Shown: positions 30,044 to 51,332 of the stretch, in pieces | Layout: every line of letters starts with the position of its first letter | Position numbering within the stretch: the stretch's first letter is position 1 | IMG/VR virus record: IMGVR_UViG_3300032278_000002 | Coordinates: 1 to 64,000 of that record | Reading direction: 5' to 3' (one strand) | DNA: 64,000 nucleotides | Source of the DNA: a virus | The notes under the pieces: generated by a model | Databases searched by the model: none | The model's input: the letters and a program-made list of their open reading frames with translations, nothing else | What the model was told of the DNA's origin: nothing | Translations under genes and position numbers: made by a program

Positions 30044-30217
30044 ATGACTAAGGAAAACGTAAAAAAAGTTGTGGGGGTCCGGTTGACGGAAACCACTAAA
30101 AACAAGCTCGATACGCTCTCCGCCAAGTACCAAGTGTCCGTATCCACGTTAGTGAGGATAGCGGTTAACCGACTTGTCCAAGACGCGGAGAAAGATAAGG
30201 AGATTTCCTTGTCATGA
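30044..30217 (+). CDS. Ribbon-helix-helix transcriptional regulator
   Basis: 57 residues from ATG 30044; an in-frame extension upstream is rejected because it crosses the control region. VVGVRLTETTKNKLDTLSAKY then VSVSTLVRIAVNRLVQD is the Arc/CopG/MetJ-type pattern: an N-terminal strand (VGVRL) that reads DNA as a dimer ribbon, and two helices. First gene of the rightward block, facing the exonuclease operon, so it may repress its own promoter and the divergent one. It also lies 1.3 kb from the ATGACATG array; small RHH proteins often bind such short repeats. Confidence 0.82.
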   Translation: MTKENVKKVVGVRLTETTKNKLDTLSAKYQVSVSTLVRIAVNRLVQDAEKDKEISLS

Positions 30218-31446: not shown

Positions 31447-31552
31447 GTAGTCTATGGGGTGGGTGCGTCAAGTCTTCTTGATCGTACTGCCGGGCTACTT
31501 CCAAACAAAGTTCCACCTCCGTCTCATCAATGACATGAGGCTTTCTCTTCAT
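31340..31552 (-). CDS. Small minus-strand protein within the repeat region
   Basis: 70 residues from ATG 31552. The first half (KPHVIDETEVELCLEVARQY) looks folded; the second half is Gln/Glu/His-rich and overlaps the basic 53-residue gene in another frame. Its ATG lies inside one ATGACATG repeat, and an 11-bp inverted repeat (31528-31538/31549-31559) spans its first codons. If expressed, it would be controlled directly by whatever binds the array. No family recognised. Confidence 0.45.
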   Translation of the reverse strand: MKRKPHVIDETEVELCLEVARQYDQEDLTHPPHRLHDEDRAIIHRQPGTETKGVLHQEGESLRRQDEQEG

Positions 31553-31768
31553 GTCATTGCGTAAAACGTTCGAAATGAGCGAGATCCAGCCCAAAATGAC
31601 ATGATGACATGTAATCCGGCCAAAAACCCAATAAATGTTATTACCTTATATATACTCACACTTTTTTACTGTTTTACATGTCATCATGTCATTGGCGTAT
31701 ATAGTGTGCTGGATACCAAAGAGTTATGAAATGACATGTAAGAATACCCTCATGTCATTCATGTCATT
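31528..31768. repeat. Array of ATGACATG octamers in both orientations
   Basis: Nine copies of ATGACATG or its complement CATGTCAT: forward at 31530, 31596, 31604 and 31731; reverse at 31550, 31677, 31685, 31751 and 31760. Two paired copies form a perfect 20-bp inverted repeat (31595-31614 with 31674-31693) flanking an AT-rich core of about 59 bp, and another pair forms an 11-bp inverted repeat. Paired iterons around an AT-rich core are typical of replication origins, partition sites and multi-site operators. Mostly non-coding between 31553 and 31763. Confidence 0.85.
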
Positions 31769-32066: not shown

Positions 32067-32280
32067 ACGCTCGATTAAACCCCAAAAGCACCGGGACACG
32101 AGCAAAAAGTTTGAGAATGCTCCGACTAGAGACGCCCTATGTTATACTCGTACGCAGGCAAAAGAGCAAACCCCCCTTGCCCCCCTTCCCTAGTGGTATG
32201 GTTTGGGTAGTACCCTACCACAATCTCCTTGCTTCGGCTTATAGTCTAACCGCAACAGAAACCAAGTGACCAACAAAACA
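32067..32280. promoter_or_regulatory. Intergenic region with nested inverted repeat and -10-like site
   Basis: Separates the minus-strand island from the rightward 181-residue gene. A nested inverted repeat, GTGGTA/TACCAC (32193-32198, 32216-32221) around GGGTA/TACCC (32205-32215), looks like an operator or leader hairpin. TATACT at 32143-32148 is a good -10 hexamer but has no clear -35. The rest of the gap shows no gene. The rightward gene begins without a Shine-Dalgarno sequence. Confidence 0.35.
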
Positions 32281-32838: not shown

Positions 32839-32879
32839 CCGCTAGCCCAATTCGGGGCTAGCGGTTCACGCTTTTTTTA
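32839..32879 (+). terminator. Strong intrinsic terminator after the single early gene
   Basis: Perfect 10-bp stem CCGCTAGCCC/GGGCTAGCGG with a 6-base loop (stem 32839-32864), followed by TTTTTTT at 32872-32878. It ends the transcript of the 181-residue gene and is immediately followed by the repeated TGTGGACATCAA element. Confidence 0.9.
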
Positions 32880-32880
32880 G

Positions 32881-32925
32881 GGGTATGACCTGTGGACATC
32901 AATGCAGGGCATCCATTTTAACCAC
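32881..32925 (+). promoter_or_regulatory. Repeated promoter-like element, copy 1
   Basis: Contains TGTGGACATCAA (32891-32902), then 18 bases after TGGACA the block TTTTAACCAC. The same two blocks recur upstream of the gene at 33844, and the first recurs before 35147, each time just after a terminator. TGGACA resembles a -35 and TTTAAC a weak -10. Drives the gene starting at 32945 by inference. Confidence 0.6.
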
Positions 32926-32944
32926 TAACCACGAGGATATAATT

Positions 32945-33184
32945 ATGTTCTGTCTCTATTGTTTCGGGAAGTTCATCCAAACTTTGAATGCACTCCCAAC
33001 ATTCCATGACCTTGGTCCAGACCCAGTCACGGACCACATCGATGCCGACAAGGATGGCATAACCCAATGGATTCCCTTGGGCAAAACCGATGCCTTGTCT
33101 CCGTTGGTTGTCGAATGGGAAGACAACCCACCACATCCAAGCCCAGCCGAACGGGCTGAACTGCTTGAGGAGCTACGCTCATGA
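32945..33184 (+). CDS. Small unknown early protein
   Basis: 79 residues from ATG 32945; the upstream in-frame extension is rejected because it covers the promoter element. GAGG lies about 10 bases upstream. Begins MFCLYCFGKFIQ with two Cys, followed by Asp/Pro-rich sequence and a helical end (AERAELLEELRS). No family recognised. Couples to the next gene through ATGA. Confidence 0.65.
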   Translation: MFCLYCFGKFIQTLNALPTFHDLGPDPVTDHIDADKDGITQWIPLGKTDALSPLVVEWEDNPPHPSPAERAELLEELRS

Positions 33185-33483
33185 AGTTCAAGACCTTGAG
33201 CTGTCAAACGATGACCAAGAAAGAACTCAAGACAATGCTCAAGCTTGAGGTTGCCTTGTCTCTTGATGACATCAAGCAACTCAAACGCATCCTTAGCAAG
33301 GGATGCCATCCCGACCATCACAAGACTCTCGGCTTGTCGAAGAAGACTTGCGAGAGGTTGATGAAGGATGTGAACCAACTCATCAAGGACTTGGAGGACT
33401 GCACTATCCTCCACGACTCCATGGTTCGACAACTCGATGAACGAGGGCTTCATCGAGGGAACACCAAACTCCTCAAGGAATAA
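33181..33483 (+). CDS. J-domain-like small protein
   Basis: 100 residues. The segment DDIKQLKRILSKGCHPDHHK (about residues 29-48) followed by a long basic helix has the helix II, HPD tripeptide, helix III layout of a DnaJ J-domain; the normal stimulatory HPD is present. If genuine it could recruit or mimic the host DnaK system, as DnaJ-like phage proteins do. The domain is slightly short and Cys replaces the usual Tyr/Phe before HPD, so the call stays tentative. Confidence 0.5.
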   Translation: MKFKTLSCQTMTKKELKTMLKLEVALSLDDIKQLKRILSKGCHPDHHKTLGLSKKTCERLMKDVNQLIKDLEDCTILHDSMVRQLDERGLHRGNTKLLKE

Positions 33484-33502
33484 CACTTTGCTTTTCATCA
33501 CC

Positions 33503-33847
33503 ATGCGTTACATCACAAAGTCCTCGGCAGTGAGGCACAATTGGGAGGATTGCCTTCATGTATTAGCTCTAGGAACAGAGGAGGGTGGCACCCTCGGGCA
33601 AACAGCCGATAGCAAGGAGAAAAACGGGTTGGCTCATGACCAATCCAAGCGAGAGGTACGCTTTAGTGTAATGCTACGGCTAGATAACCAAGACCTCGAA
33701 GTATCCGAGCGGGTTCCATCTCCTCGGTGGTTGCATACCACCGAGGAGAGCCTGTTTACCTCACTTTATTTAAGGGGTGACAACTGTGGACATCAACGCA
33801 CAACACCCCTTTTAACCACACCAACATCGAACAGAAAGACCAAATGA
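33503..33847 (+). CDS. Doubtful frame crossing a terminator
   Basis: 114 residues from ATG 33503. The first 70 codons could encode a short protein (RYITKSSAVRHNWEDCLHVL), but the frame runs on through a strong hairpin and the promoter-like element, and its stop overlaps the next ATG. More likely a shorter or non-coding region with an incidental open frame. No ribosome site. Confidence 0.3.
   Translation: MRYITKSSAVRHNWEDCLHVLALGTEEGGTLGQTADSKEKNGLAHDQSKREVRFSVMLRLDNQDLEVSERVPSPRWLHTTEESLFTSLYLRGDNCGHQRTTPLLTTPTSNRKTK
33719..33771 (+). terminator. Strong hairpin terminator, second cassette boundary
   Basis: Perfect 13-bp stem TCTCCTCGGTGGT/ACCACCGAGGAGA with loop TGCAT (33719-33749), followed by a weaker T-rich tract (TTTACC, CTTTATTT). 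Immediately followed by the second promoter-like element. Confidence 0.75.
33772..33822 (+). promoter_or_regulatory. Repeated promoter-like element, copy 2
   Basis: AAGGGGTGACA then TGTGGACATCAA (33785-33796), then TTTTAACCAC 18 bases after TGGACA. Matches copy 1 in order and spacing. The gene at 33844 starts 48 bases after the 12-mer. Confidence 0.62.
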
Positions 33848-34425
33848 ATATATATCTAATGCTACTACGACTCGTTCTCGCAGTCGTTGACCTTGCCAAG
33901 AAGCACAGACTCAAGGCGAGGGAGATTGACCCAGTCCTTCAACTTGTCAGCGATATCTCGGAGGCAACTGTCCATGAGGAATGCCACCGCGAGACTCTGA
34001 GTGAACGAGCCACTACTCTAGCCAACGAGCTCGCCACCGCTATTGATGACCTCGACCGGAAATACAAAGCTCAAGAGCTCACCGAGGAACAGGGGTGGAA
34101 AGAGCGGAGGTCACTCCACACGCACATCGGACAAGCACGGGAGCGGGTGAAAGAGATGGGTAACTTGGACGAGCACAAGGACATCTACAAGGCGGTGGCT
34201 ATCTACGAGCAGGTGCTGATAGAACTTTGCGTCATGTTCCCTCGCACCAATGTACCGCTGGAGGTCGACCGCCGGAAAGGCTCGGGTACTATAAATGCCT
34301 TCCCCGAAGGAGTACTGCCCAACGGTGACACCATCCATGTTATAGAAGCTGACGGCACGGGTGCGGACATCTCCGACCTCGAAGCCTTTCGAACCGCAGC
34401 TAACAACAAGGGAGACCAATCATAA
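33844..34425 (+). CDS. Unknown early protein with hydrophobic N-terminus
   Basis: 193 residues. Residues 3-16 (IYLMLLRLVLAVVD) are hydrophobic and may be a membrane anchor or buried helix; then a long charged helical region (about 50-125) and a beta-rich Gly/Asp C-terminus. No family recognised. First gene of a three-gene cassette; AGACCAA precedes the ATG instead of a clear Shine-Dalgarno sequence. Confidence 0.72.
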   Translation: MNIYLMLLRLVLAVVDLAKKHRLKAREIDPVLQLVSDISEATVHEECHRETLSERATTLANELATAIDDLDRKYKAQELTEEQGWKERRSLHTHIGQARERVKEMGNLDEHKDIYKAVAIYEQVLIELCVMFPRTNVPLEVDRRKGSGTINAFPEGVLPNGDTIHVIEADGTGADISDLEAFRTAANNKGDQS

Positions 34426-34700
34426 TGGGTAAACCAAATCACTCACCGAAGGGTAAGGGCCGGAACTGGTGGTATCGCATCCGCAACATCCGAAAGGACC
34501 AAAAGGACGCCGCAGACCGCAACACCCACAAGAAATTCGTTGCGGAGGAGGAGAAGAAGAAGGAGAGCCGGGAAGCATCCATACCATCCGTCCTCCCCGA
34601 ACGCCTGCGTAACATCGGCCCAGTTAGCCCGAAGGCTACCACCAACTGGTTTGGCAAAGCATGGTCTGGCGTGAAGGGTGCTTTAAGGGGGAAGTCATGA
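34425..34700 (+). CDS. Small basic protein
   Basis: 91 residues, rich in Lys/Arg and Trp (GRNWWYRIRNIRKDQKDAAD), with disordered Pro/Ser stretches. Starts one base inside the upstream stop (TAATG). No family; nucleic-acid binding is suggested by charge only. Ends with ATGA overlap to the next gene. Confidence 0.7.
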   Translation: MGKPNHSPKGKGRNWWYRIRNIRKDQKDAADRNTHKKFVAEEEKKKESREASIPSVLPERLRNIGPVSPKATTNWFGKAWSGVKGALRGKS

Positions 34701-35029
34701 AGGTTACGGTAGGACTCAAGATGGGCGAAGGTGTCGCTGGCTTCCTGTTCAAGTTAGGCGACCTCGTCCTTGAAAACTCTTACTCGAACATTTCGGGTGG
34801 ACCCAATGCCAAGGAGGACATGGAGGAAGCCATCGAGGCTTTCATCCGTGAGATGCGGGAGCTGGGTCATGAAATCATCGTTGACCCAAGCATCATCGCC
34901 AAACTCAAGGAAACTTATCCTTACTTCAAGCTCCCTTCCCTCGAGAACAAGGGACCATACGATGATGCCATGGCAGATGCGGATATCGAGGAAGCAGGGG
35001 AAAACCTCGCAAAGGATTGGGTAGATTAA
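34697..35029 (+). CDS. Small acidic protein
   Basis: 110 residues from ATG 34697 (GGGGGAAGTC just upstream; longer frame rejected for overlap). Begins KVTVGLKMGEGVAGFLFKLG, then a helical middle EDMEEAIEAFIREMRELGHE and an acidic end. Possibly a small regulator; no family recognised. Last gene before a terminator. Confidence 0.68.
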   Translation: MKVTVGLKMGEGVAGFLFKLGDLVLENSYSNISGGPNAKEDMEEAIEAFIREMRELGHEIIVDPSIIAKLKETYPYFKLPSLENKGPYDDAMADADIEEAGENLAKDWVD

Positions 35030-35057
35030 TGTTTGACCTTCGCCCCTACCAACACAC

Positions 35058-35101
35058 GACCCAGCTCATCATCGCCATGGTGAGCTGGGTCACCTTTTTT
35101 T
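35058..35101 (+). terminator. Intrinsic terminator, third cassette boundary
   Basis: Perfect 11-bp stem GACCCAGCTCA/TGAGCTGGGTC (35058-35091) with a 12-base loop, followed by TTTTTTT (35095-35101). Immediately followed by GGGGGATTTCGCC and the third TGTGGACATCAA copy. Confidence 0.9.
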
Positions 35102-35140
35102 GGGGGATTTCGCCTGTGGACATCAATTTAACAACACACC
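35102..35140 (+). promoter_or_regulatory. Repeated promoter-like element, copy 3
   Basis: GGGGGATTTCGCC then TGTGGACATCAA (35115-35126), followed by TTTAACAACACACC. The -10-like block lies closer than in copies 1 and 2, so spacing differs. The next gene starts at 35147. Confidence 0.58.
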
Positions 35141-35146
35141 AATAAC

Positions 35147-35473
35147 ATGAAGAAGCTAAAATATATTTGCGTCTACTTGCACGGCACGACCCTCCTTGAC
35201 GACTGCCTTCCCCACGAAGCCCAACTTGTTCCCCCATTCAATCCTCAAGCCGTGTGGGATGCTGGTGTGGAGGAGATGAACGAAGCCATGCACCAAGTCG
35301 GTAATAACGAACGCAGTCGGCTACTGGCAACGTTGCTCATGCGTTTCCAACAATTTCTTCCGTCCCATGATGCCATGATAGCATTGAATGGCGTAGCCAA
35401 GCTAATGCATGACACGGACACAACGAACGGAACCGTAATTATTATTCGTAAAGACGGGAGTACCCGTCTGTAA
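35147..35473 (+). CDS. Small unknown early protein
   Basis: 108 residues. Starts KKLKYICVYLHGTTLLDD, then a helical middle (VEEMNEAMHQVGNNERSRLL) and a beta-ending (GTVIIIRKDGSTRL). No family recognised. No Shine-Dalgarno sequence; CACCAATAAC precedes the ATG. Confidence 0.68.
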   Translation: MKKLKYICVYLHGTTLLDDCLPHEAQLVPPFNPQAVWDAGVEEMNEAMHQVGNNERSRLLATLLMRFQQFLPSHDAMIALNGVAKLMHDTDTTNGTVIIIRKDGSTRL

Positions 35474-35498
35474 CAACCAAAAAGAAAGACCAAGACCA

Positions 35499-35990
35499 AT
35501 GACAACACCCAATGATACCGACATCCGCTCTGATATTGAGCAAGAAGTCGATGAAATACAGAAGAAGAACGACAACCAACTAGTCAATCAACTGCGAGAA
35601 CTGCGGGAGGGAGACCAATTCATCTCGACCGGTGGTGACGGATGTGCTTTCACCCAGCATCTCAAGTTCTTGATTCTCTTTGGAGGCACCCTTGCCGAAG
35701 AGATGCAGGCCAATCCTCAAGTAATGGGGGACAAGGAAAGCGAGAAGATACTCTTGGGCTTGGAAGTCGCAATCGAGGGAATCAATCACATCCTCACATT
35801 ACCCAGTCAATACGATGTGATTGACAGACTCATCGACCGAGTCGAAGCCTGCGATGCCGAACGCTCCAACCTTCTCAATGCAGTCGGACAGCAGGAAGCC
35901 GGAGGCGAGGCTGTCTACTTGGAAGATTGGAAAAAGGACGGCTCACTTCCCTTCACCTTCCCATCCGGAATCGGGAGAGACCAATCATGA
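35499..35990 (+). CDS. Unknown early protein
   Basis: 163 residues, largely helical and acidic (DIEQEVDEIQKKNDNQLVNQ; later VIDRLIDRVEACDAERSNLL). AAAGACCAAGACCA precedes the ATG. Couples to the next gene by ATGA. No family recognised; the C-terminus (IGRDQS) ends on the same GACCAATC sequence seen at the end of the 193-residue gene. Confidence 0.7.
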   Translation: MTTPNDTDIRSDIEQEVDEIQKKNDNQLVNQLRELREGDQFISTGGDGCAFTQHLKFLILFGGTLAEEMQANPQVMGDKESEKILLGLEVAIEGINHILTLPSQYDVIDRLIDRVEACDAERSNLLNAVGQQEAGGEAVYLEDWKKDGSLPFTFPSGIGRDQS

Positions 35991-36763
35991 CAGTACTGGA
36001 TACAATACTAGCGACCTTCATCCTTGTGGTGCTTGGGTTCACGCTTCGTGGTTTGGTGGCTTACGCCAGTGAACGCCAAAGACTAAGGCTCCCCAAGCCA
36101 GTTCATGAGGACAAGGCATTCCGTGACAAGTTGGACTCAATCAAACATGAGGACAATGTCATAAGCTTCTTTGATGACCTCGGCCCTCCTCCATCCCAAC
36201 TTGATATCAGCGGTTTCATGCATAACCATCGTTCGGTTGAGGAGTATCAACTCTACGGTATTCGCCGCTGCTGTCGGCTGCTCCTCGACCCAATACATCC
36301 ACACAGCGAGGATTGGCCTTGGAGATGCCGAGCACGCTTGGGAGGTGTCTCCGGTTACAGGGGAAATCGCTTCCACTCCCTGCCCAAGAAGGTTCTGTAT
36401 CAGCAAGCCCTTGAGTATTTGTCGGAGAATGCATCGCACCACCAGCTCCTTGATTGGAAAAGCTTCTACCGCAACCACCCCGAAGAAGAAATTGCCATGA
36501 TAGCGGAATCCCAATCAATGGGCGGTCATAGCATCCCCGAAATGTCCAAGGAAATATGCCAAGCTCTCGGATCAATGCTCACCCCCCGCCAACAACTCGA
36601 CACCTTGTGCAAGGAGATATTCCCCGACATGGAACCGTACGCCGCTCGCTCTCGATTCCGATGGTACAACAGGCGATGGGTGCAAACCCATGACGAGGCA
36701 GGGACGCCTGTGGACATGGCAGACAAGGCAATCGAAAAGGGAGGACACCACGATGTCAGTTGA
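35987..36763 (+). CDS. Membrane-anchored unknown protein
   Basis: 258 residues from ATG 35987. One N-terminal hydrophobic segment (ILATFILVVLGFTLRGLVAY, residues about 7-26) without a signal cleavage site suggests an inner-membrane anchor; the rest is soluble, with a Trp/Arg-rich centre and helical C-terminus. No family. A GCCTGTGGACAT copy sits near its 3' end, 36 bases before the next ATG. Confidence 0.7.
   Translation: MTVLDTILATFILVVLGFTLRGLVAYASERQRLRLPKPVHEDKAFRDKLDSIKHEDNVISFFDDLGPPPSQLDISGFMHNHRSVEEYQLYGIRRCCRLLLDPIHPHSEDWPWRCRARLGGVSGYRGNRFHSLPKKVLYQQALEYLSENASHHQLLDWKSFYRNHPEEEIAMIAESQSMGGHSIPEMSKEICQALGSMLTPRQQLDTLCKEIFPDMEPYAARSRFRWYNRRWVQTHDEAGTPVDMADKAIEKGGHHDVS
36706..36717 (+). 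promoter_or_regulatory. GCCTGTGGACAT motif upstream of the long operon
   Basis: The 12-mer GCCTGTGGACAT matches the core of the three promoter-like elements and is 36 bases before the ATG at 36753, but the TTTTAACC block is missing. Possible internal promoter for the AAA+/VWA operon. Other GCCTGTGGAC copies lie inside genes at 39837, 42920 and 47542. Confidence 0.4.
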
Positions 36764-37019
36764 CAACATATTGAAGAGAGCGGGGTTTCATTCCCCCGAC
36801 CAAGTGAAGGAACATCTCGCCTCGATACCTAGTTCGGTCGATGGCGTCATTGGCTCCCGAAAATTCATTCATGCTCCCAGTTCCCGTCTCGTGAATGCCT
36901 TGCTGTACCAAGGAATCAATCATGTCACGCCGTTGATGCCCGGTGAGGTAAACACGGGGCGTGCGTGGAGGTGCCCGACCAACGAAGTTCGTAATTACGA
37001 AGGAGGTTACTGTGAATAA
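36753..37019 (+). CDS. Small unknown protein at operon head
   Basis: 88 residues from ATG 36753, with GGGAGG upstream. Contains SVDNILKRAGFHSPDQVKEH and a C-terminal stretch with two Cys. No family. Overlaps the next gene by 8 bases (GTGAATAA), indicating coupling to the 1,063-residue protein. Confidence 0.68.
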   Translation: MSVDNILKRAGFHSPDQVKEHLASIPSSVDGVIGSRKFIHAPSSRLVNALLYQGINHVTPLMPGEVNTGRAWRCPTNEVRNYEGGYCE

Positions 37020-40000
37020 GTTTCTTAAGAATCTCGAGAGGGACAACCTCTACCCGTTGGGGCGTGACGCAACCCTGTCCGATTGGAAGTCGGGCAGGTT
37101 CGTTCGCATGTTCGCTCCAAGTAGTTGGTACTCATCAATGAGGCACCGAATGGATCCCGATGCCGACCACCCAACGGGCCCGCACCGAGTAGGCGGCCAA
37201 GGTATTACGCACTCCAGTAAAGCCTCCCTGCACTTGCCTAGTTGGTTTCATGAATCATACGACCTTAAGTGGAACGCAAATGTTTGCGGTAGACCCCTCG
37301 CAGTAAGCGAAGGGCAAAACTTCAATACCTCTTGGGGAACGAATGGCAAGAAAGATGTATTCAAGGATGATTTCCATGGTGTGCTACCCGAAGGCTACTT
37401 GTTAATTCCCCACGACTTCTTGATAGGGTCTGAGCCAAGGTGGGAATCTCCCCTGAGCCTGTTCGAATACCCATTCTATGCACCGTTCGCCACCCTCACC
37501 TCCTTGTTTCATGACTCGGGAGCCAGCATAGTGGACAAGTGGGAGTTGGAAGATGAGTCAAAGGGGTACGAAGTACGCTATCAACGGGAGCTTGTATCCA
37601 AAATCAATGCCAAGTGGTGGGTCGGCAAAGCCAAGACCTGTCGTCACAAGATTGAATACATACTCAAGTGGTTGCGAGACCCCACGCTTGACCTCCGCGT
37701 GAGGTGGGGAATCACTCCCAGCGATCAATTGAAAACTAGCAAAGAGAGATTCACTTGCACTGACGTGGCGGAATTGTGGAATTCCTATGACAATCCGGAA
37801 GAACCCTACGCTTTGCGGTATAATCTTAGGAATGACTACGGTCACCAAAGAAAGGATCCAGACCAGACTAGTGGCAAGCACCTCGATGGCACCAAGAGCA
37901 TAATCTACGGACGGAGGTTTGAACTGAACAGCGACCGCGTGCGATTGCGTATCGGGATGATGCCTCGCTTGAAACAGTACATTGTCTGCAAGGACACTTA
38001 TTCACCTGCATTGGCCGCGCCTTGCAAAGAATATAAAACTGATGCAGTCGCCAGTCGCAGGGAGACTGGTTCATGGGACGCAACGCGCTTCCGTGCTCAT
38101 CCCAACTACAATGACGCCCAAGACCACCTCTTCACTACTCCCATCAACTTGTTGGGAGTGTTCGGGGAACAGCGCAACTCCTTGATCAAGGACAACCTTT
38201 GCTACAAAGCTCATACGGATTCACACTATCGCAGCCCCAAAAGGTCTTGGTTCTATGTCAATACGCCCGTGCCAGATGCAAAGAGCGAGCACGGCCGTGT
38301 TAGAACAACGCTCGAGCTGGGCTGGACACACATTCGTTCGTTCAACTTGTGTTTCAAGCGGGTTGGGCAGGGACTGTATGAGTGGAAGGATTTGGGATGG
38401 GAACTCCCCGAGGAATCATATGACCCGCCGGGAGCTGAAACCAATACAAAGGCGGACAATCAACTCATGGCCGTTCGGTGGCTCACCGCACGTATGAACA
38501 AGGAGTTGAAGGGACGTTGGTATCTGCGAACAACTGGGCCCGCTTACACAAACCTCCCAATTAAAGGCACGAACAGAAACAGCACCCATCAACAGATAGC
38601 GTGGCTCGGCGAGTGGATCAACATGCTGGAGACGTTGATGGAAACTGACCGCCGAGGCGCCGAGTACTTGGCTCTGATGATGAACCAACTAATTGACCCG
38701 AAAAGAACAACTGGTTGGGACAGTCCCCGGTATCAATTGAATGCCGAGATGAAATTCATCAAAGGCAGTCACCCCGGTCGCCTTCGAAAATTGATAAATG
38801 ACCCCAATATACTGACACCGCCCACGGGCTTGCCCGATTCTGAGAGAGAATCACTACACAAAGCACGCAACGTGTTCTATAAGTATCTTCCAGCTTTTAC
38901 CGTCAAAATGTTCAAGAAAGCGAAAAAGGATTACCTCAAGCAGAGGCATCATGAGGATTGTGACCAAGTCTTGACTTGCAAATGCCCACCCAACGGAGGC
39001 TTGAATATTTCCTACAAGTACTTGAAGCAGTTATATCGCAAGAGATGTAACCTAGCCGTCAAGTGGCACATATCCGACAACGACTGTCAAAGTGGAAAAG
39101 TATTCAATGCATTGACTGGTTCCCTTGTCGTCCTACTCCCTCGAAACAGGGTATCTCATAAGCAGAGCCGAGACGGACCCACGATACTCAATACCATGAA
39201 CGTTGATTATTCCGGCGGATTCATTGTGTTGTCCAACGGAACCTTGGATTCAATGCACGTGTCCGAAGCTACCGGTCACCATCAGCGGGGACAATATCCG
39301 GAAGGGGATTCTCCGCCATTCGCAGGGCCCGTGAGGTTCAGATGCACCGTTGATGCGGTAAGGGCTTTCCGCGATCCATATGTCAGCGCCTTGTCCTCCA
39401 AAGAATTCAAAGGATACCCAGCCACGTACGCATACGACCGCCCCTATTGCGTGGTAAGGAAATCAGAGAGACAATCAACCCCCGACTGGTTGTTGGTTCG
39501 ATCCCATGCCAGCGTGACCGAGGTTCGCCCGAAAGAAGAGATAGCTCATGACCTCCGAGTCCATCAAATTACGTACGATAGGCTCAAGTTGGAACTGGCC
39601 AATGGCGTGGATGCCGCCGGCATGCCGCTGAGCAAGCGATCTCGGTTGGATTATGTGAACTGCTACCTCCCTCGGTTGGAGAATCAACTTAAGTTCCCTC
39701 GGGAATTCAACCAACACAGGGTGTCCAAGGGGTTTGACGAACAACTTCAATTAACTAACTCGATAGGTCAGCTTTACCACGACCGATCAATTGGACAATT
39801 TCCGGTCATGAGTACGGCGTATGCAGTGCTATTTATGCCTGTGGACATGTTCGATGCCTCTCCAATGGAAATATACAACTGGATGAAAGATTATTGTGAC
39901 AAGTTGATCACCCGCTCCCTTCGCAGTCGCAGGTATTGCTACGCCAATTGCGTGTGGCAATCACTACATAAGCTACGGTGGTGGGCCAAGTCTTTTGGGC

Positions 40001-40203
40001 TGACTCGGAAATTCAACCGCCAGTTTCCCATGAACAAGTTGGAGAATATATACATGAAACAACTGATTCGGTACCGAGTGAAAAATTTATGTCCGCTTAC
40101 TGGGCGGCCAATGAACAGAACAACAAATGTAGATACCTTCCGTGAACGCGAGGGGTATGTACGAAACGTAAAGGAAGAAGAAATATGGAAATACCAACGC
40201 TAA
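37012..40203 (+). CDS. Large unknown protein linked to AAA+/VWA operon
   Basis: 1,063 residues from GTG 37012 (AAGGAGG is 5-6 bases upstream). Rich in Trp, Tyr, Arg and His, predicted mixed alpha/beta with no transmembrane segment. A C-x-C pair occurs in DQVLTCKCPP (about residue 660), and the C-terminal 80 residues are basic (KHKLRWW-type patches). No motif of a nuclease, polymerase or protease was recognised. It ends 19 bases inside the MoxR-type ATPase gene, so it is likely the partner or substrate of that system. Its size and lack of recognisable family make it the main unknown of the window. Confidence 0.8.
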   Translation: MNKFLKNLERDNLYPLGRDATLSDWKSGRFVRMFAPSSWYSSMRHRMDPDADHPTGPHRVGGQGITHSSKASLHLPSWFHESYDLKWNANVCGRPLAVSEGQNFNTSWGTNGKKDVFKDDFHGVLPEGYLLIPHDFLIGSEPRWESPLSLFEYPFYAPFATLTSLFHDSGASIVDKWELEDESKGYEVRYQRELVSKINAKWWVGKAKTCRHKIEYILKWLRDPTLDLRVRWGITPSDQLKTSKERFTCTDVAELWNSYDNPEEPYALRYNLRNDYGHQRKDPDQTSGKHLDGTKSIIYGRRFELNSDRVRLRIGMMPRLKQYIVCKDTYSPALAAPCKEYKTDAVASRRETGSWDATRFRAHPNYNDAQDHLFTTPINLLGVFGEQRNSLIKDNLCYKAHTDSHYRSPKRSWFYVNTPVPDAKSEHGRVRTTLELGWTHIRSFNLCFKRVGQGLYEWKDLGWELPEESYDPPGAETNTKADNQLMAVRWLTARMNKELKGRWYLRTTGPAYTNLPIKGTNRNSTHQQIAWLGEWINMLETLMETDRRGAEYLALMMNQLIDPKRTTGWDSPRYQLNAEMKFIKGSHPGRLRKLINDPNILTPPTGLPDSERESLHKARNVFYKYLPAFTVKMFKKAKKDYLKQRHHEDCDQVLTCKCPPNGGLNISYKYLKQLYRKRCNLAVKWHISDNDCQSGKVFNALTGSLVVLLPRNRVSHKQSRDGPTILNTMNVDYSGGFIVLSNGTLDSMHVSEATGHHQRGQYPEGDSPPFAGPVRFRCTVDAVRAFRDPYVSALSSKEFKGYPATYAYDRPYCVVRKSERQSTPDWLLVRSHASVTEVRPKEEIAHDLRVHQITYDRLKLELANGVDAAGMPLSKRSRLDYVNCYLPRLENQLKFPREFNQHRVSKGFDEQLQLTNSIGQLYHDRSIGQFPVMSTAYAVLFMPVDMFDASPMEIYNWMKDYCDKLITRSLRSRRYCYANCVWQSLHKLRWWAKSFGLTRKFNRQFPMNKLENIYMKQLIRYRVKNLCPLTGRPMNRTTNVDTFREREGYVRNVKEEEIWKYQR

Positions 40204-41276: not shown

Positions 41277-42574
41277 CACGGATAAACGTAGCACCAACAT
41301 CAGCTCCCCTCAGCAAAGAGGACCAGAAAGACCTTATCGACAAGGGCACCCTCCGAATCAGACGCATTCAATGTCGGAAGCTGGTCATGGAAAAGCCCTT
41401 TTGGGCGGCGATCATGTATCAATTGTTGATGTCGGTTCGCATGGGAGAGGGCACTGCTTGGACGGACGGCCGCCGACTGGTGTTCGATGCTCAATTCATC
41501 GACTTGTTGACCGAAGAACAACTACTCGGACTCATCCTACACGAACTAGCTCACGTGGTGTTCATGCACCACCTTCGCCGAGGACCCCGGGACGGTCAAC
41601 TCTGGAACATGGCGGCTGATTATTGCATAAATTGGCTGTTGGTTCATGTCGACAGTCAAGTCCTGCCCGATGGGGCTCTTCTCGAGGATGAGTACAAGGA
41701 TGACACGGCTGAACAAGCTTACGCCAAGTTGTACAAGAAATATCCGCCGCCGCCGCAGGGGCATGGGAACCCTCCCGGACCTTGCAATGGTGGGCTGGGA
41801 GGTCAGCAACCACCGGGTGTGCCCGGCGTACCTGGCCAAGATTGGGGCGAAGTACGCGATGCGACTGGGGAAGGGGACGTAAAATTAACCGATTCCCAAA
41901 AGAAAGCGGCCGAGCAGCTGATGGCAGTGTCAATTCGACAAGCGATGAACACCGCCAGACGCCAAGGCAAGATGCCGGGTGGCTTGCGGGAGAAATTCGA
42001 GGGGTTACTCAAACCTACCGTTGATTGGAAGAAAATTCTCAACGACTTCTTGTCAGAAAGATTCCCCTTGGATTACAGTTGGACCACGGTCAATACTCGA
42101 CGCAGCCTCCCCGACTCCTGCCTCCCGGGCAGGGACGGAATCCAATGGGCACGGGTTGCCGTTGCCATCGACACGTCCGGTTCCGTGACAGTGGATGAGA
42201 TCCGGCAAATGTGCTCGGAGATAATGCACTGTCTGGACTGCTATGATTCAAATGGTCAAGGGATGGAAATTGACGTCCTTTACTGTGACACTGAGTTACA
42301 CGGCCATGAAACACTGACGTCCGGCGACATGCCGTACCAAGAAATCAAGGGAGGCGGAGGCGGTACCATGTTCTCTCCAGTCATGGAGGAGTTCAAGGAC
42401 CGTCAATACCTCACCGAAGACCCAGCCGCCTTGATCTACATGACGGACGGCTGCTGTGATGATTTCGGGGATGATCCCGAAATCCCTGTCCTCTGGATGA
42501 TGGTCGGGGATTACTATAATAAAACATTCAAACCACCGTTCGGCACTGTTAGCCGGATGGAACTTGCTAACTAG
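41273..42574 (+). CDS. Metallopeptidase-like VWA protein (DUF2201 type)
   Basis: 433 residues. The N-terminal half has a zinc motif HELAH (residues 90-94) with a third ligand candidate in WNMAADYCIN (Asp116), as in DUF2201 putative metallopeptidases. A Gly/Pro-rich linker (about 158-190) leads to a VWA domain with MIDAS DTSGS (Asp300, Ser302, Ser304) and a later TDG. The family pairs with MoxR AAA+ ATPases. Peptidase activity is not proven: the Zn motif may be structural. ATGA overlap with the ATPase gene. Confidence 0.88.
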   Translation: MTRINVAPTSAPLSKEDQKDLIDKGTLRIRRIQCRKLVMEKPFWAAIMYQLLMSVRMGEGTAWTDGRRLVFDAQFIDLLTEEQLLGLILHELAHVVFMHHLRRGPRDGQLWNMAADYCINWLLVHVDSQVLPDGALLEDEYKDDTAEQAYAKLYKKYPPPPQGHGNPPGPCNGGLGGQQPPGVPGVPGQDWGEVRDATGEGDVKLTDSQKKAAEQLMAVSIRQAMNTARRQGKMPGGLREKFEGLLKPTVDWKKILNDFLSERFPLDYSWTTVNTRRSLPDSCLPGRDGIQWARVAVAIDTSGSVTVDEIRQMCSEIMHCLDCYDSNGQGMEIDVLYCDTELHGHETLTSGDMPYQEIKGGGGGTMFSPVMEEFKDRQYLTEDPAALIYMTDGCCDDFGDDPEIPVLWMMVGDYYNKTFKPPFGTVSRMELAN

Positions 42575-42584
42575 GAAAGGAAAA

Positions 42585-43556
42585 ATGACTAAGCTACATA
42601 TGGCTACTAGCCAAAACGACCCCAGAAATGGGAAAATACTACAAATCGCCAAGCTCAAGGGACTTCGTCCCCACTTCACCAAGTGGGTCAACGGTATTCT
42701 GATTGAGCAGGGCTTCGTTGACTCCGATGGAACGGCTAAGGGCGGATTAGGCCACGCTGTCCGTGGGCCTTTGGTCGGTGACGACCGGGTCGAGGAGTTC
42801 TACGATAGAGTAATCAATGGATTGGAGGCCGTTGAACCTCTTGCGCCCGGAGATCCCTTGCCCGAGGGACATCCGTTTGCAATTCCCCTCGCCGAGTTGA
42901 TGGCAGGAGAAAAGGAGACGCCTGTGGACCGCACGAGCACAATAGAAAAATACACGGCTGACTCCGAAGAAGTTGAAGCCCATTCCAAGAATGATGGCGA
43001 GGTTCGAGGCGTTGACAGCAAGGTCGATCCGCTCGATGCCGCTCAACCCTGCCCCGAGCTGGCTTGCCAAGTGGATGAACAAGTCGGTGACCCAAATCCA
43101 TTGGCCCACGTAACTGCTGATGAACTCGATGGTTTCCGGGAATTCATGACGGGAGCTAAGGATACTGCCAAGGAAGCGCTCAAGGAAGTGGTTGTTCTCG
43201 GTGAATCCAATATGCTCATGGAGGGGAGACTCTCCGCTTTGGAGCAACAAAACTCCGCTCAACGACTCGACAAGGTCGAAGACATACTCGGGAATTGCTC
43301 GAATCCGTGTCAAGGTGATCCCGACGAGACTCCAGCTCAGACACTCAATGTGATTGAGGCCCGACTCAGCCAAGCGGAGGTATCTCTCCAAGACTTGGGG
43401 GACTCTCTCCCCGGGGGAGCTAGCAATCGTGATGGCGCGGACATTGCTGCAATTACCGCAAGCATAACGCACGCCGTGCTTGATGAAGTAGTCAAGCTGT
43501 GTGTTACCCGTAACGATCTTCAAGTTTTACTCAACCTAAATAAGGAAGGCAAATAA
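42585..43556 (+). CDS. Unknown protein with coiled-coil C-terminus
   Basis: 323 residues from ATG 42585 (AGGAAAGGAAAA upstream). N-terminal 85 residues look folded (LRPHFTKWVNGILIEQGFVD); the middle is acidic and disordered; the C-terminal 150 residues form a predicted coiled coil (ALEQQNSAQRLDKVEDIL, VIEARLSQAEVSLQDL). No family. Ends in TAATG overlap with the next gene. Confidence 0.72.
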   Translation: MTKLHMATSQNDPRNGKILQIAKLKGLRPHFTKWVNGILIEQGFVDSDGTAKGGLGHAVRGPLVGDDRVEEFYDRVINGLEAVEPLAPGDPLPEGHPFAIPLAELMAGEKETPVDRTSTIEKYTADSEEVEAHSKNDGEVRGVDSKVDPLDAAQPCPELACQVDEQVGDPNPLAHVTADELDGFREFMTGAKDTAKEALKEVVVLGESNMLMEGRLSALEQQNSAQRLDKVEDILGNCSNPCQGDPDETPAQTLNVIEARLSQAEVSLQDLGDSLPGGASNRDGADIAAITASITHAVLDEVVKLCVTRNDLQVLLNLNKEGK

Positions 43557-46374: not shown

Positions 46375-48877
46375 TGAAAATCCAGTACTAACCTACTCCA
46401 TTGACGGGTTGATTCAAATCAACTTGATGGATGACCAACGAGTCGAGCTCGGCAAGGAGTGGTGTGAAAAACTCGAGTGCTTCGATGGCAAGATCGCCGA
46501 AGAAGTTATTCGTGAGCAATACTTGAGGGAACATGCTCAAGAAATAATAGATGCCTATAACGATGACTTGTTCAAGATAGCAGTATCAGTCGAGATCAAG
46601 TTGAACGTAGCGTTAAAGGCATACGGGAAAGCCTGCGCTCCATTGATGCCCCCAACTGACTATGAGCTCATCGCCTACGTGGATGGGTTGCAGAAGGGGT
46701 TGGTTTGTGACGACGCCGTATCCGGCATGTCGTTCACCAAGGGATGGACATATCCTGTCCGCACGGAATTCTTCGAGTATTCGGAGAAGTTCGTAGTCAA
46801 TCGTCCTTATTACGATGAAAAGACCAAGAGCTATCTGAAAAAGAAGCACCGGATCAGCCGTAAAGGGAAGGATCGAGCCATCGTTGTTCGGGACGACTTC
46901 GGCGAGGAGAACTACTTCTTGGAAAAGCCGACCCTGTTTCCAACGAGCCGGCTGCCCTCGAATGGGCAATACAGACTGCACGACATCGATTGTATGTGGC
47001 TGGCTTTCCAACGGCCTAAGATATCCACGGTCAAGGAGACCTTGAGAGAAACGTATGATGATGTGATCAATCGGCTCGAGGTATATGAAATGATGTGCGG
47101 ATTCGAATACTATGAAGGTCAGCGAGATTTCATTGCTCGCATGGCGTGCCGGGACTTCGGCATAGTGGGCGCCGCCTGCGGATGCGGGAAATCCTTGATG
47201 GCTATCACATTGATGAAGGTGAAGGAGGATGCCTTGAAAATCTTACTCATAGCACCGGCATCAACTGTGACCAGCGGAAATGGGTACACTCCCGCTCAAT
47301 GGGCGCAAGAGTTTGCCGACTTCGCTCCCGACATCAACACCTTCGAGTTGTTCTCGTTCGATCACTACGAGTTGTTGAAGAAACGGTACAAGGGCAAGCT
47401 GCCCCCCGGAGTGTACATCACTTACCCCGAAGCCATGTTTACTTCGGGCGCTCGGGAGTACTTACCGCAAACATGGAAAGAGGAAGGCCGAAAGGATCCT
47501 TGGCTGGTCGAACGAAAGTTCCGGAAAATCATGAAGATGCCGCCTGTGGACGAGGACAATCTCATACATGAGGAGCAGTATCACAAGGGGCTTGGACAAA
47601 CTTGCGGAGAAGGGGAGATACTCTGCGTTGCGAAACCTAGTCTGAGTTCGGTGGTGTCCCAAGAACAAGGCGACTTCGACATGATCGTATTGGACGAGGC
47701 CCACACCGTGGCGGCGAACATAAAGTCACAGAGAGGTCGCGCGTTCCTTCGAATGCAGTCAAAGTACCGGTACTGCCTATCGGCTACTCCCATTCCCAAT
47801 AATATTGGCGACTTGTTCGGGATAATGGGATGGGTCACCGTTCCCAAGTGGTACAGGGGGAACAAGCGCTCAGTTAGCTTCCCTTACTCAATTGAGCAAA
47901 AGGGTAACTTCGAATCCGCTTACTTGACCTACGAAGATGACTTGACCGCCACCATGCGAGCATCGGTCAAATATGTCAAAGGTCGGCAAAGAAGAGTGCG
48001 AAGACGGTCCAACATAGTGAGTCAACCCACTAGCCTGCTCAAACTACTGAAGCCTACCATTGGATATGTTGACAAAAGCGACTGTCGGAACGACATGCCC
48101 AAATGTATCATCAATGAAGTTAGGGTTCCGTTGGGACAAATACAAGCGCGGGCGTACCACATTGCCAAGAGTATGGCGAGAGGGGCCTTTGCCCGATACA
48201 GCCAGCTTAGGCAAGTGTGCGCGGACCCTTCCGCTTATGGATCGCCTCCGGAAAATCCAAAAACCATGACCGTGCTGCAATTAGCGCTGCAGTGTCTCGA
48301 GAAGCACGAGCAGGTGGTAATCGTGTCGGCACGCCACGGAATGACCAACGCGTTGGAGGAAAAATTCTGGGAGTCTGGAGTAACGACTTCTCGATTGGAC
48401 GGGTCTATGTCGTCGAGAATGCAAAGCCAAGAATCACAGGATTTCAAGGATCAACGAACACAGATTATGTTGATGGGAATCAAATGTGCGATGGGTCATT
48501 CCTACCCGCAGTGCCCCAACTTGATATGTACGAGCTTGGAGTGGAGTTACGGCACCAAGGAACAAGCCTTCGGGCGTGTGTTCAGAGTCAACTCTCCCAA
48601 GACAGTCAATATCTGGTGTGTGCTGCATGCGGAATCCATCGAGGATACCATGTTCTCCCGAGTCAGCGACAAACAGGAGTCAGCATTGCTCTGTCTCCAT
48701 GGAAAACGAATGACTCGCACACCCAAGTTCTCCACACCGGAGGACATCTTGGCGGAACACCTCATTGATTACGCCGCCGGGGAAACGATAGATGAACAAG
48801 TTTGCATAAGGGAATGGCCGTCCTTACGCACCAAGCTTGCCGATGCGGCCCAAATATTCGACCCAACACTAGCATGA
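46364..48877 (+). CDS. Large SNF2-type superfamily 2 helicase
   Basis: 837 residues. N-terminal 250 residues are unique. Then GQRDFIARMACRDFGIVGAA leads into Walker A GCGCGKS (about 272-278), the DEAH box in IVLDEAHTV (about 440), motif III LSATP, and C-terminal motifs V and VI (ICTSLEWSYGTKEQAFGRVF). Second SNF2-like helicase of this phage; the other is 419 residues at 22.4 kb. Overlaps the ligase-like gene by 11 bases and the integrase by ATGA. Confidence 0.85.
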   Translation: MITNENPVLTYSIDGLIQINLMDDQRVELGKEWCEKLECFDGKIAEEVIREQYLREHAQEIIDAYNDDLFKIAVSVEIKLNVALKAYGKACAPLMPPTDYELIAYVDGLQKGLVCDDAVSGMSFTKGWTYPVRTEFFEYSEKFVVNRPYYDEKTKSYLKKKHRISRKGKDRAIVVRDDFGEENYFLEKPTLFPTSRLPSNGQYRLHDIDCMWLAFQRPKISTVKETLRETYDDVINRLEVYEMMCGFEYYEGQRDFIARMACRDFGIVGAACGCGKSLMAITLMKVKEDALKILLIAPASTVTSGNGYTPAQWAQEFADFAPDINTFELFSFDHYELLKKRYKGKLPPGVYITYPEAMFTSGAREYLPQTWKEEGRKDPWLVERKFRKIMKMPPVDEDNLIHEEQYHKGLGQTCGEGEILCVAKPSLSSVVSQEQGDFDMIVLDEAHTVAANIKSQRGRAFLRMQSKYRYCLSATPIPNNIGDLFGIMGWVTVPKWYRGNKRSVSFPYSIEQKGNFESAYLTYEDDLTATMRASVKYVKGRQRRVRRRSNIVSQPTSLLKLLKPTIGYVDKSDCRNDMPKCIINEVRVPLGQIQARAYHIAKSMARGAFARYSQLRQVCADPSAYGSPPENPKTMTVLQLALQCLEKHEQVVIVSARHGMTNALEEKFWESGVTTSRLDGSMSSRMQSQESQDFKDQRTQIMLMGIKCAMGHSYPQCPNLICTSLEWSYGTKEQAFGRVFRVNSPKTVNIWCVLHAESIEDTMFSRVSDKQESALLCLHGKRMTRTPKFSTPEDILAEHLIDYAAGETIDEQVCIREWPSLRTKLADAAQIFDPTLA

Positions 48878-49893
48878 GTATTAACAAAGCAGTTAACGCG
48901 TGGTCCGAATGGTTGGGGGAGACTCTCTCCCCCGCCCTTCGGGACACATATGAAAAACGACTGAAAGCTTTCGCCAAGAGGCGGAAGCTCAAGGACGTCA
49001 CTTGGAAAACCATCAACCAGTTTCTGAGAGACAAAGGCAAACGCGGGTTGAAGTACAGTACGATCAAGCAATATATCAGCGCTTTGAAAAGCTTCTGCAA
49101 ATTTGCTTACGCCGAGGGCTTGCTGGACAAAGACCCGTCTTCACTGATAAAGATACGGCCGCAAACCTTAGCCATACGACAGCTCGAGGATGAGCCGCGT
49201 GTTCCGTTCACCTACGACGAGTATGAGTCAATCTTGGCGTACGTCACGATGTGGGAACATGGGGCAAAGCAGATGAAGACACGGCAATGGGCCACCTTCT
49301 GGAAGATTGCGGTTCCCTTGTCGTACTGGACGGGAGTTCGTCTGCATGACTGCGCTTGCCTCGAGGTAGGTAATTTCTATTACGAGTTGTTTGACTACGA
49401 GCTGCCGAAATTTGCAGGCATGCTTTTTTGGACGAAGAAGAGAAACAAGAGGGTCTTTCTACCACTGGATAATCCGCTGATAGGTCACCGTCATTTGGTG
49501 GACATACCGAACCAATTGAAAAGAAGGTCATGGATCGCCGCCGCCTCCGGTGCAGTATCCCACCAATACGGAAATGCCGAGAAACTGGACGATCTCAACG
49601 GGGAGTTCTATTTCCCCCTGCAATATAGACTTATCGACTCTCCTCAAAGAAACCAATTCTCCCAGCGATTCAAAAGAATCACCGACTCGTTGGGCATCCA
49701 TGGAAAAAGTTTCCATTGCCTAAGGCATTCGTTCGCCACCCGCTTGGAAGAAGCTGGCGTAACTTACGAGGATATCGCTAGATTTATTGGACATGGTCAA
49801 ACGATAACCACCCAAGGGTATTGCCACGGGCAAGAGTTGCCCGATTTAGGTATCCCGAACCAAGCTAGAAAATTCTTCAACCCGAAATACTGA
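48874..49893 (+). CDS. int: Tyrosine recombinase (integrase)
   Basis: 339 residues from ATG 48874. N-terminal core-binding domain (about 1-100) then catalytic domain with Arg156 (TGVR), Lys188 (WTKKR), His281 and Arg284 (HCLRHSFATR), His307 (GHG) and nucleophile Tyr316 (QGYCH). This is a complete catalytic set. Suggests a temperate life cycle or resolution of phage DNA. No flanking attachment site is recognised. Embedded in the early operon rather than isolated beside a tRNA. Confidence 0.9.
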   Translation: MSINKAVNAWSEWLGETLSPALRDTYEKRLKAFAKRRKLKDVTWKTINQFLRDKGKRGLKYSTIKQYISALKSFCKFAYAEGLLDKDPSSLIKIRPQTLAIRQLEDEPRVPFTYDEYESILAYVTMWEHGAKQMKTRQWATFWKIAVPLSYWTGVRLHDCACLEVGNFYYELFDYELPKFAGMLFWTKKRNKRVFLPLDNPLIGHRHLVDIPNQLKRRSWIAAASGAVSHQYGNAEKLDDLNGEFYFPLQYRLIDSPQRNQFSQRFKRITDSLGIHGKSFHCLRHSFATRLEEAGVTYEDIARFIGHGQTITTQGYCHGQELPDLGIPNQARKFFNPKY

Positions 49894-50384: not shown

Positions 50385-50579
50385 TTACGCGCCCGTCCCT
50401 CTTCGGAGGGGCGGGCTTTTTTTTTGCTTTGATTCCAAAGGAAGCTCCATTGTTTGACGAATCATGCCTTCGATGGTAGAATACTCTTTGTCTAGTTTGC
50501 CTTCGCTCTCGCGGCTGTCGCTACGCCAGACTTGCCGGCCGGGAGCGGAGGTTTTTTTTGGATTTTTTTTGGTGTCCAC
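50385..50579 (-). CDS. Possible 64-residue protein ending the leftward block
   Basis: 64 residues from GTG 50579, 3 bases after the stop of the GT92-like gene. Lys-rich N-terminus, then a helical segment (GKLDKEYSTIEGMIRQTMEL) and a basic end. The start codon lies inside CCTGTGGAC, and the frame continues through the plus-strand terminator sequence. Protein-like composition and close coupling argue for a gene; lack of any relative argues against. Confidence 0.42.
   Translation of the reverse strand: MDTKKNPKKTSAPGRQVWRSDSRESEGKLDKEYSTIEGMIRQTMELPLESKQKKSPPLRRGTGA
50391..50425 (+). terminator. UUCG-loop terminator at convergence point
   Basis: Stem GCCCGTCCCTC/GAGGGGCGGGC (one G-U pair) around TTCG, followed by nine T (50417-50425). 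Ends the rightward operon. On the minus strand the same hairpin lacks a long following T-run. Confidence 0.92.
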
Positions 50580-50582: not shown

Positions 50583-51332
50583 TCAACACAACAGGAATGC
50601 GACGGCCCACAAATCCTCTACCTCGTTTAGGTTGTGCCGTAAGTAATCGGGCTCCGCATCCCGTGGCTGGTGTGATGCCGCACGGCCTCTGCTCATCTTA
50701 TGGACATATTCTTCTCTAGTTTTGCAAAAATAATGGTTTATCTGCGCCACGTCGTCTGGCCCGTCGGGATTGAAGGGACCACGACCGACATGTAAATTCG
50801 TATCAACCCATTTGAGATTAGAATAATGAGGGTTTCTATACACGGGATTCTTACTTAGCTTGACCATTGTTTTTACGTGCTTATTAACCCCGATACCCCT
50901 TTTCGTGAACCTATCTATAACACTATAATTCCCTTTTGAGACTTCTTTATGCCCGTTGTTTCCGAAGATATGCCAATTCACCGCAATGCTATCGTACTCC
51001 CCATAGCATTGAATGAAATTTTTAATGGAATCGTGTTTCTTTAGGACGAGAAACTCATCGACGTCTATGAAACATGCCCAATCATAATTCCCTTTATTCG
51101 ATTCGATGAAAAGGTTATAAGCCTTCATCTGCGGTCGCTCCAATATGGGCTTATGGGCAGCGGTCTTCCCGTCATGTTCAACCAAATGGACGTTTTCCCC
51201 GATTACCCCCTCAGCTCTCCATTCGTTTTGATAAATCCATATATCGTCAAACCCCAGAGCGGTATGATAATCAACCCATTCTTGGATATAATGGTCTTCG
51301 TTTTTGGCTATACATACCAAAGCTAATTTCAT
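50583..51332 (-). CDS. GT92-like glycosyltransferase
   Basis: 249 residues. N-terminal LALVCIAKNEDHYIQEWVDY then LGFDDIWIY is the GT92/Glyco_tranf_2_4 signature; FIDVDEFL (about residue 90) supplies the DxD-type metal site. Expected to transfer a sugar onto a glycan or protein. Final long gene of the glycan cassette, overlapping the sulfotransferase by ATGA. Confidence 0.75.
   Translation of the reverse strand: MKLALVCIAKNEDHYIQEWVDYHTALGFDDIWIYQNEWRAEGVIGENVHLVEHDGKTAAHKPILERPQMKAYNLFIESNKGNYDWACFIDVDEFLVLKKHDSIKNFIQCYGEYDSIAVNWHIFGNNGHKEVSKGNYSVIDRFTKRGIGVNKHVKTMVKLSKNPVYRNPHYSNLKWVDTNLHVGRGPFNPDGPDDVAQINHYFCKTREEYVHKMSRGRAASHQPRDAEPDYLRHNLNEVEDLWAVAFLLC

Follow-up and report, generated by a model that had tools for sequence, protein, structure and literature searches.

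We analyzed a 12-mer, TGTGGACATCAA, which recurs in the virus record IMGVR_UViG_3300032278_000002, a tailed phage known from metagenome sequence alone. All positions refer to the window, i.e., the first 64,000 bases of this record, which comprises 72,681 bases in total. Our preferred but tentative interpretation, drawn from the sequence, is that the 12-mer may form the recognized core of a DNA signal which is specific for the phage lineage, points in the sense direction, and opens a new expression unit. In the whole record the 12-mer was found three times in forward orientation, at 32891, 33785, and 35115, and never in reverse, and its reversed-letter control gave no match. For the plus-strand operon harboring the three copies about 0.01 copies were expected from third- and fourth-order Markov models. 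Allowing up to two mismatches, 13 matches were observed compared to a shuffle mean of 4.96, and none of 100 shuffles reached 13.

The 12-mer Lies at the Head of Hairpin-Fronted Gene Cassettes

A preliminary description of this DNA had placed each copy behind a perfect-stem hairpin and a G-rich spacer and in front of a gene, which was borne out. The distances from hairpin to 12-mer are 26, 35, and 23 nt for copies 1 to 3, a run of GGGG or GGGGG lies 7, 7, and 8 nt upstream, and the following ATG was located 42, 47, and 20 nt downstream, in agreement with the 20 to 50 bases given before. For copies 1 and 2 a second element had been reported exactly 18 nt behind TGGACA; at this distance TTTAAC is found, and TTTTAACCAC itself begins 17 nt behind TGGACA. 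At the place of TTTAAC copy 3 retained only TAAC, and TAAC is present at +16 in all three copies. Copies 1 and 2 match each other at 78% over 54 nt, while copy 3 kept the 12-mer with flanks diverged from both.

For the window, ten stems with 10 or more perfect pairs were listed. Four of them are located between genes of the plus-strand operon; three precede the 12-mers and the last one forms the terminator at 50391 which ends the operon. Compared to dinucleotide shuffles, all three hairpin regions in front of the 12-mers have the better fold, with z-values of -2.65, -5.44, and -3.90. All three had been called terminators. The perfect stems were confirmed, and hairpins 1 and 3 are terminator-like, but solely hairpin 3 passed the terminator scan and has the intrinsic-terminator form of a GC-rich stem with a T-run close behind it; a gap of 7 nt precedes the T-run of hairpin 1, and hairpin 2 has no adjacent T-run. 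We considered and rejected that an RNA fold is conserved at the 12-mer, which pairs upstream in copy 1, lies within a stem in copy 2, and does neither in copy 3. An Rfam search of the window gave no match. A place between hairpin and gene is what independently transcribed cassettes would need, in line with our promoter-type interpretation.

Further Core Copies Are Located Inside Genes

Three copies turned out to be an under-count, as genes of the plus-strand operon contain the core CCTGTGGAC at four additional places (Table 1). In the whole record CCTGTGGAC occurs six times forward and once in reverse, with no match for the reversed-letter control. The word CTGTGGAC was found seven times on the plus strand, all within 32.8 to 47.6 kb, and once on the minus strand at 50581. 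Apart from this minus-strand match the core is confined to the plus-strand operon with its non-structural genes. For GCCTGTGGAC, five copies were seen in the operon versus 0.02 to 0.06 expected, and none elsewhere on the plus strand. A blind word count returned CTGTGGAC and its extensions among the top repeated words of the operon, on par with the low-complexity words GAAGAAGA and AAGAAGAA.

The in-gene copies 4 to 7 all read CCT GTG GAC, and CCT is the rarest proline codon in the plus-strand genes. Four of the five Pro-Val-Asp tripeptides encoded there use exactly CCTGTGGAC, compared to none of four in the minus-strand genes. In 3,000 synonymous-codon shuffles four copies of CCTGTGGAC were never reached (mean 0.143), and among the eight codon triples with at least three copies CCTGTGGAC deviated most from the codon shuffle. 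Because of these tripeptide counts and shuffles, protein sequence and codon use do not explain the in-gene copies, which are probably members of the signal. The minus-strand copy at 50581 opens a 64-aa frame and was left out of the member count. The word TGTGGACA is enriched on the minus strand, too (6 versus 1.1 to 1.5 expected), mostly as in-frame GTG GAC codons, and these were left out as well. TGTGGACA resembles a DnaA box of high-GC bacteria. A DnaA-box interpretation was rejected, since single-mismatch boxes are scattered over both strands.

Relatives Share the Architecture but Not the Sequence

Relatives were sought with single proteins and with polymerase, terminase, and MazG-like alignments, in collections which may omit very near records. 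Genome contig searches yielded no close relative, and megablast against phages no relative. The record IMGVR_UViG_3300025897_002391 (L022) showed 62% identity to the window phage in the polymerase and 80% in the terminase. A second close relative by terminase (L081) is too short to reach the cassette region. At the syntenic place L022 has a hairpin with T-run, then the 12-mer TTGCCAATGACG, then a gene, and a second unit consists of a hairpin, TTGCCAATGACG, 8 nt, and an ATG. The word TTGCCAATG occurs three times on that strand of L022, all in the first 2.3 kb, and not on the other strand (19 kb). The first proteins of both operons do not align: the window ORF at 32282, compared with the first L022 protein, Pfam, and PHROGs, gave no match to the L022 protein.

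The distant relative G010 (terminase 42%, MazG-like protein 46%) carries TGTGACACTAA eight times on one strand, with no copy on the other and none for the control. By eye an ATG lies 7 to 55 nt downstream of all eight sites. With mechanical ORF calling, a start was obtained within 52 nt of the four sites in locus L122, in one case inside the motif itself, but for none of the three sites in locus L224. As the G010 genes lie mostly on the motif's strand, strand bias alone says little. The related word TGTAACACTAA was found four times in G005 and three times in G006, on one strand only. Matches were obtained in 4 of the 12 records searched and in 3 of 28 further records. Judged from the sequences compared, the habit is shared and the sequence is not: phage-specific motifs in one orientation near gene starts.

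Some further observations concern repeats in these and other phages. In G010 and in G005/G006 (loci L127 to L141) TGTGACACTAA or TGTAACACTAA stands mostly near gene starts, with some copies inside larger palindromes, e.g., TTAGTGTAACACTAA. In locus L056 (2110-7690) AGGAGTAACCA occurs seven times directly before likely start codons, literally a start-associated sequence in another phage. In locus L073 (435-11870) TCCCTACTGGT is present seven times in both orientations, several copies being just upstream of gene starts and several belonging to the palindrome TCCCTACTGGTAGGGA. Two IMG/VR scans with elements of the window gave results which we took as chance. For TGTGGACATCAA-N2-20-TTTAAC 17 stretches with a single match each were obtained, none resembling the window cluster, and for GGGG-N6-9-CTGTGGACATCAAY two single matches which looked like coding sequence.

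A Possible Signal for Independent Expression

In the mechanism we favor, the hairpin, terminator-like in copies 1 and 3, would close the preceding mini-operon. The signal itself would consist of the core GCCTGTGGAC, which the three strong copies carry in the longer form TGTGGACATCAA-N16-TAAC, and a short leader would then run into the next gene. A regulator, or host RNA polymerase aided by a regulator, would most likely bind the core; transcription would then start at or just behind it, and each cassette could be expressed independently. The in-gene copies might represent weaker sites of the same kind. In promoters of phage polymerases the core is located at the start point itself, and such a position would fit the short distances to the ATG. 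The preliminary description had proposed a dedicated phage promoter set. A repeated signal in one orientation which heads small hairpin-fronted cassettes stands, with the same architecture in L022, but the -35/-10 form is doubtful. For the phage polymerase named there as a possible reader no match to PF00940, phrog_414, or phrog_2166 was obtained in the record or its relatives. The family phrog_414 was absent from 7 of 7 records with a matching control, whereas for PF00940 (absent from 10 of 10) and phrog_2166 (absent from 7 of 7) the control genomes gave no match as well, and the record is a fragment.

Several findings weigh against the signal as we favor it. Protein family searches of the record revealed no sigma factor or RNA polymerase gene. 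Hairpin 2 is no canonical terminator, copy 3 has its -10-like part (AATAAC) immediately in front of the ATG, and the 9-codon frames described below align with the elements equally well. L022 is the only close relative having the cassette region, and in our reading it lacks a fixed second element. Concerning the in-gene copies, 0.37% of the 20,187 13-mer positions in the operon contain a 9-mer with at least four further copies, the motif's own positions included, and copies 5 to 7 are hundreds of bases away from the next gene start. In-gene 10-mers were also found frequently in unrelated loci (CAAGGAACTC five times in L025, TTGACGAAGT four times in L027), and we consequently gave the in-gene copies less weight than the three intergenic ones.

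Alternative Explanations

A translated leader is possible, if unlikely. The 12-mer would then start a 9-codon ORF (T + GTG GAC ATC AAY ... TAA) with GGGG as ribosome-binding site, delivering ribosomes to the next gene or regulating it by reinitiation or attenuation behind the hairpin; TTTTAACCAC would be read as TTT TAA plus CCAC. All three copies have exactly nine codons and TAA; a frame in the operon would meet its first stop at that codon with a probability of 0.02. In all three copies GGGG is positioned 8 to 9 nt upstream of GTG. The frames of copies 1 and 2 differ at three synonymous third bases and one codon, and the TAA of the third frame lies 1 nt before the ATG. The L022 motif contains ATG ACG yTn, and its second copy makes a frame of five codons which overlaps the following ATG in an ATGA. 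However, copies 1 and 2 are related, which leaves copy 3 as the sole independent test. The L022 frames have no G-rich site upstream, that of its first copy runs over 30 codons, and the G010 motif in our reading opens no consistent frame. The in-gene core copies could not work this way.

We regard as rather improbable that the 12-mer is an operator of the stoperator type, i.e., a site at which the immunity repressor of the phage would block initiation or elongation and so keep the operon silent in the lysogen. The phage is probably temperate, since integrases are encoded in the window phage, G010, and G017. The sites are asymmetric and keep one orientation relative to transcription, and the motif differs among relatives, as described in the cited passages for heteroimmune cluster A phages (PMC3029335, PMC6550527). 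In our comparison the L5 consensus GGTGGMTGTCAAG has GTGGA and TCAA in common with the 12-mer. Nevertheless, three to seven sites are present here, not 24 or 34, and none was found in the presumed early promoter regions at 29.86 to 30.04 and 32.1 to 32.28 kb. Family searches recognized no repressor of the cluster A type, and the lone repressor-like protein has a ribbon-helix-helix fold with its likely sites in an ATGACAT array elsewhere.

With little confidence we also considered a composite signal in a temperate phage lineage, made up of a hairpin and a strictly conserved, phage-specific 12-mer, which would head each accessory cassette and both bind a regulator and open a short leader ORF. 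Its sequence would turn over fully between close relatives (TGTGGACATCAA versus TTGCCAATGACG at about 80% terminase identity), and the cassettes would be readable only with the matching regulator.

Ordinary host sigma-70-type promoters of the form TGGACA-N18-TTTAAC are a very doubtful explanation. TGGACA matches TTGACA in five of six positions, copies 1 and 2 fit at the 18-nt spacing, and copy 3 keeps TAAC. But the final T customary in -10 hexamers is missing, none of the sites appeared in the promoter scan, a transcript from copy 3 would begin inside the gene, and the second L022 copy leaves 8 nt to the ATG. Host -35 sites usually do not share an identity of 12 bases. The motif search proposed earlier for this bipartite pattern, carried out with up to two mismatches, did not support it: three matches were found versus 4.68 expected, and 88 of 100 shuffles reached three, so that the pattern alone is no rarer than chance.

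Finally, it is highly improbable that the units are functionless in expression, recent duplications of one intergenic stretch with in-gene copies by coincidence of codon use, as the likeness of copies 1 and 2 and the frequent in-gene 10-mers of other loci would allow, because copy 3 retained the 12-mer despite diverged flanks, the codon shuffles never reached four copies, and in L022 an unrelated motif is embedded in the same architecture.

Genome Context

The minus strand encodes terminase, portal-like, and tail proteins, and also DNA polymerase, primase, exonuclease, and helicase up to 29.9 kb. The plus-strand operon extends from about 30 to 32 kb to the terminator-like hairpin at 50.39 kb and includes genes for a MoxR-like ATPase/VWA pair, a SNF2-type helicase, and a tyrosine integrase. 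Coordinates are summarized in Table 1. For the first ORF of cassette 1 an alternative in-frame ATG exists at 32885. A zinc-ribbon match of this longer ORF was rejected, being below the cut-off and lost with the start at 32945.

Table 1. Coordinates of the 12-mer and core copies, hairpins, cassettes, and further features in the window.
Feature	Position	Strand	Remarks
Hairpin 1	32839..32864	+	Perfect 10-bp stem, loop 6; T7 run starts 7 nt past stem
12-mer copy 1, TGTGGACATCAA	32891..32902	+	CCTGTGGAC core starts at 32889
Candidate leader ORF 1	32892..32921	+	Predicted; GTG...TTT TAA, VDINAGHPF; GGGG 8 nt before GTG
Cassette 1	32945..33483	+	ORFs 32945-33184 (79 aa), 33181-33483; no family above cut-off
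Hairpin 2	33719..33749	+	Perfect 13-bp stem, loop 5; no adjacent T-run
12-mer copy 2, TGTGGACATCAA	33785..33796	+	Exact match
Candidate leader ORF 2	33786..33815	+	Predicted; VDINAQHPF
Cassette 2	33844..35029	+	ORFs 33844-34425, 34425-34700, 34697-35029; no family found
Hairpin 3	35058..35091	+	Perfect 15-pair stem, then ACC and T-run
12-mer copy 3, TGTGGACATCAA	35115..35126	+	Full GCCTGTGGACATCAA starts at 35112
Candidate leader ORF 3	35116..35145	+	Predicted; VDINLTTHQ; TAA ends 1 nt before next ATG
Cassette 3, start	35147..36763	+	ORFs 35147-35473, 35499-35990, 35987-36763; runs on into operon to terminator at 50391
Core copy 4, GCCTGTGGACAT	36706..36717	+	In frame CCT GTG GAC; 38 nt before ATG at 36756
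Core copy 5, GCCTGTGGACAT	39837..39848	+	Within ORF 36961-40203
Core copy 6, GCCTGTGGAC	42920..42929	+	Within ORF 42564-43556
Core copy 7, GCCTGTGGAC	47542..47551	+	Within ORF 46364-48877 (SNF2-type helicase)
Tyrosine integrase gene	48802..49893	+	Points to temperate life style
Terminator-like hairpin closing the plus-strand operon	50391..50416	.	11-bp stem, T9

Upstream of the cassettes, nine ATGACAT heptads in direct and inverted orientation surround an AT-rich center at 31530-31767, and in L022 similar repeats, (G/A)TGACAT or TGACAT, are arrayed at about 3352-3592. The array looks like an origin, a partition site, or an operator array. A 57-aa ribbon-helix-helix protein encoded at 30044-30217 on the plus strand, with a match to the transcriptional repressor family phrog_876 (E=4.2e-9) and by eye also present in L022, is a candidate binder of the heptads. 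A 37-nt stretch at 32104-32140 with CTAGAGACGCCCTAT as its core lies shortly upstream of the first cassette gene of the operon and is 92% identical to L022, compared to about 65 to 70% for most other aligned stretches. By this identity it is likely a control region.

At 51 to 52 kb the GC content falls to 0.36. The two minus-strand ORFs at 51000-52722 appear by eye sulfotransferase-like and glycosyltransferase-like, with no family search naming either, and were perhaps recently acquired. A giant minus-strand ORF of at least 4,087 aa covers 60417-64000 and L021, and the record breaks off inside it; Pfam and PDB sequence searches with it gave no match. An ORF of 1,080 aa had no match in Pfam, PHROG, PDB, or phage searches.

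Comparison With Known Systems

Promoters of T7-type phages have a strictly conserved short core in several copies of one direction, some of them inside genes. Unlike in those phages, no single-subunit polymerase gene was detected in the window record, a fragment, with the three families named above. A literature search for the 12-mer sequence itself yielded six papers, none of them dealing with phages according to the title. A second unrelated lineage with start-linked repeats, where close relatives keep the architecture but differ in the motif, would help to tell the possible mechanisms apart, and regulator-specific promoter, repressor site, and translated leader predict different reporter results. 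Such cassettes may also go unexpressed when moved between phages.

What follows on other phages refers to the cited passages of the respective papers. The stoperators of cluster A phages are asymmetric 13-bp sites oriented with transcription, mostly intergenic, present in 24 (L5) or 34 (Bxb1) copies, and bound by a known repressor (PMC3029335, PMC6550527, PMC9283540). Oriented asymmetric sites and a sequence varying among relatives are common to both systems, with the three full window copies intergenic and the four further cores in genes. However, the tie to hairpins or unit heads observed in the window is not described in these passages.

Start-linked motifs are also found in Microbacterium phages of the clusters EC (18 bp, 22 to 30 bp before start codons), EF (similar to the start-associated sequences discussed below), EG, and EI, and a sigma factor encoded by EC phages is assumed to control their expression (PMC7302621). 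These motifs, too, are specific for a phage cluster and have a comparable distance to the start codon. In contrast, their sequences differ from that of the window, EC, EF, and EG have more copies, the cited passages mention no hairpin for EC, and no sigma factor was found in the window.

The closest described kind are the start-associated sequences (SAS) and extended SAS (ESAS) of cluster K mycobacteriophages, known since 2011 (PMC3203893). SAS are short (~13-bp), asymmetric, strongly conserved repeats in one orientation before gene starts, found in the non-structural genome part and in larger intergenic gaps, and about half are preceded by an inverted repeat. Upstream of Adephagia gene 91 a terminator-like hairpin, an ESAS promoter, and a SAS stand in a row. 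In 2024 and 2025 their role was still called unclear or in need of experiment (PMC11373665, PMC12699233), and one of these two papers places a putative SigA-type promoter inside ESAS. Like SAS, the window 12-mer is asymmetric, keeps one orientation (three forward, none reverse), lies in a non-structural region, and has an inverted repeat in front. SAS are, however, located 3 to 7 bp from the start codon with AGGAG, compared to 20 to 47 nt and no AGGAG in the window, and their consensus GGGATAGGAGCCC is unrelated to the window sequence. Cluster K phages carry 11 to 19 copies, whereas the window has three plus four in-gene cores. The 17-bp imperfect inverted repeats of ESAS adjoin the SAS and share a consensus; all three window hairpins, 23 to 35 nt upstream, differ in sequence. 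We judged the window element not to be a SAS member, but a variant of the SAS/ESAS kind.

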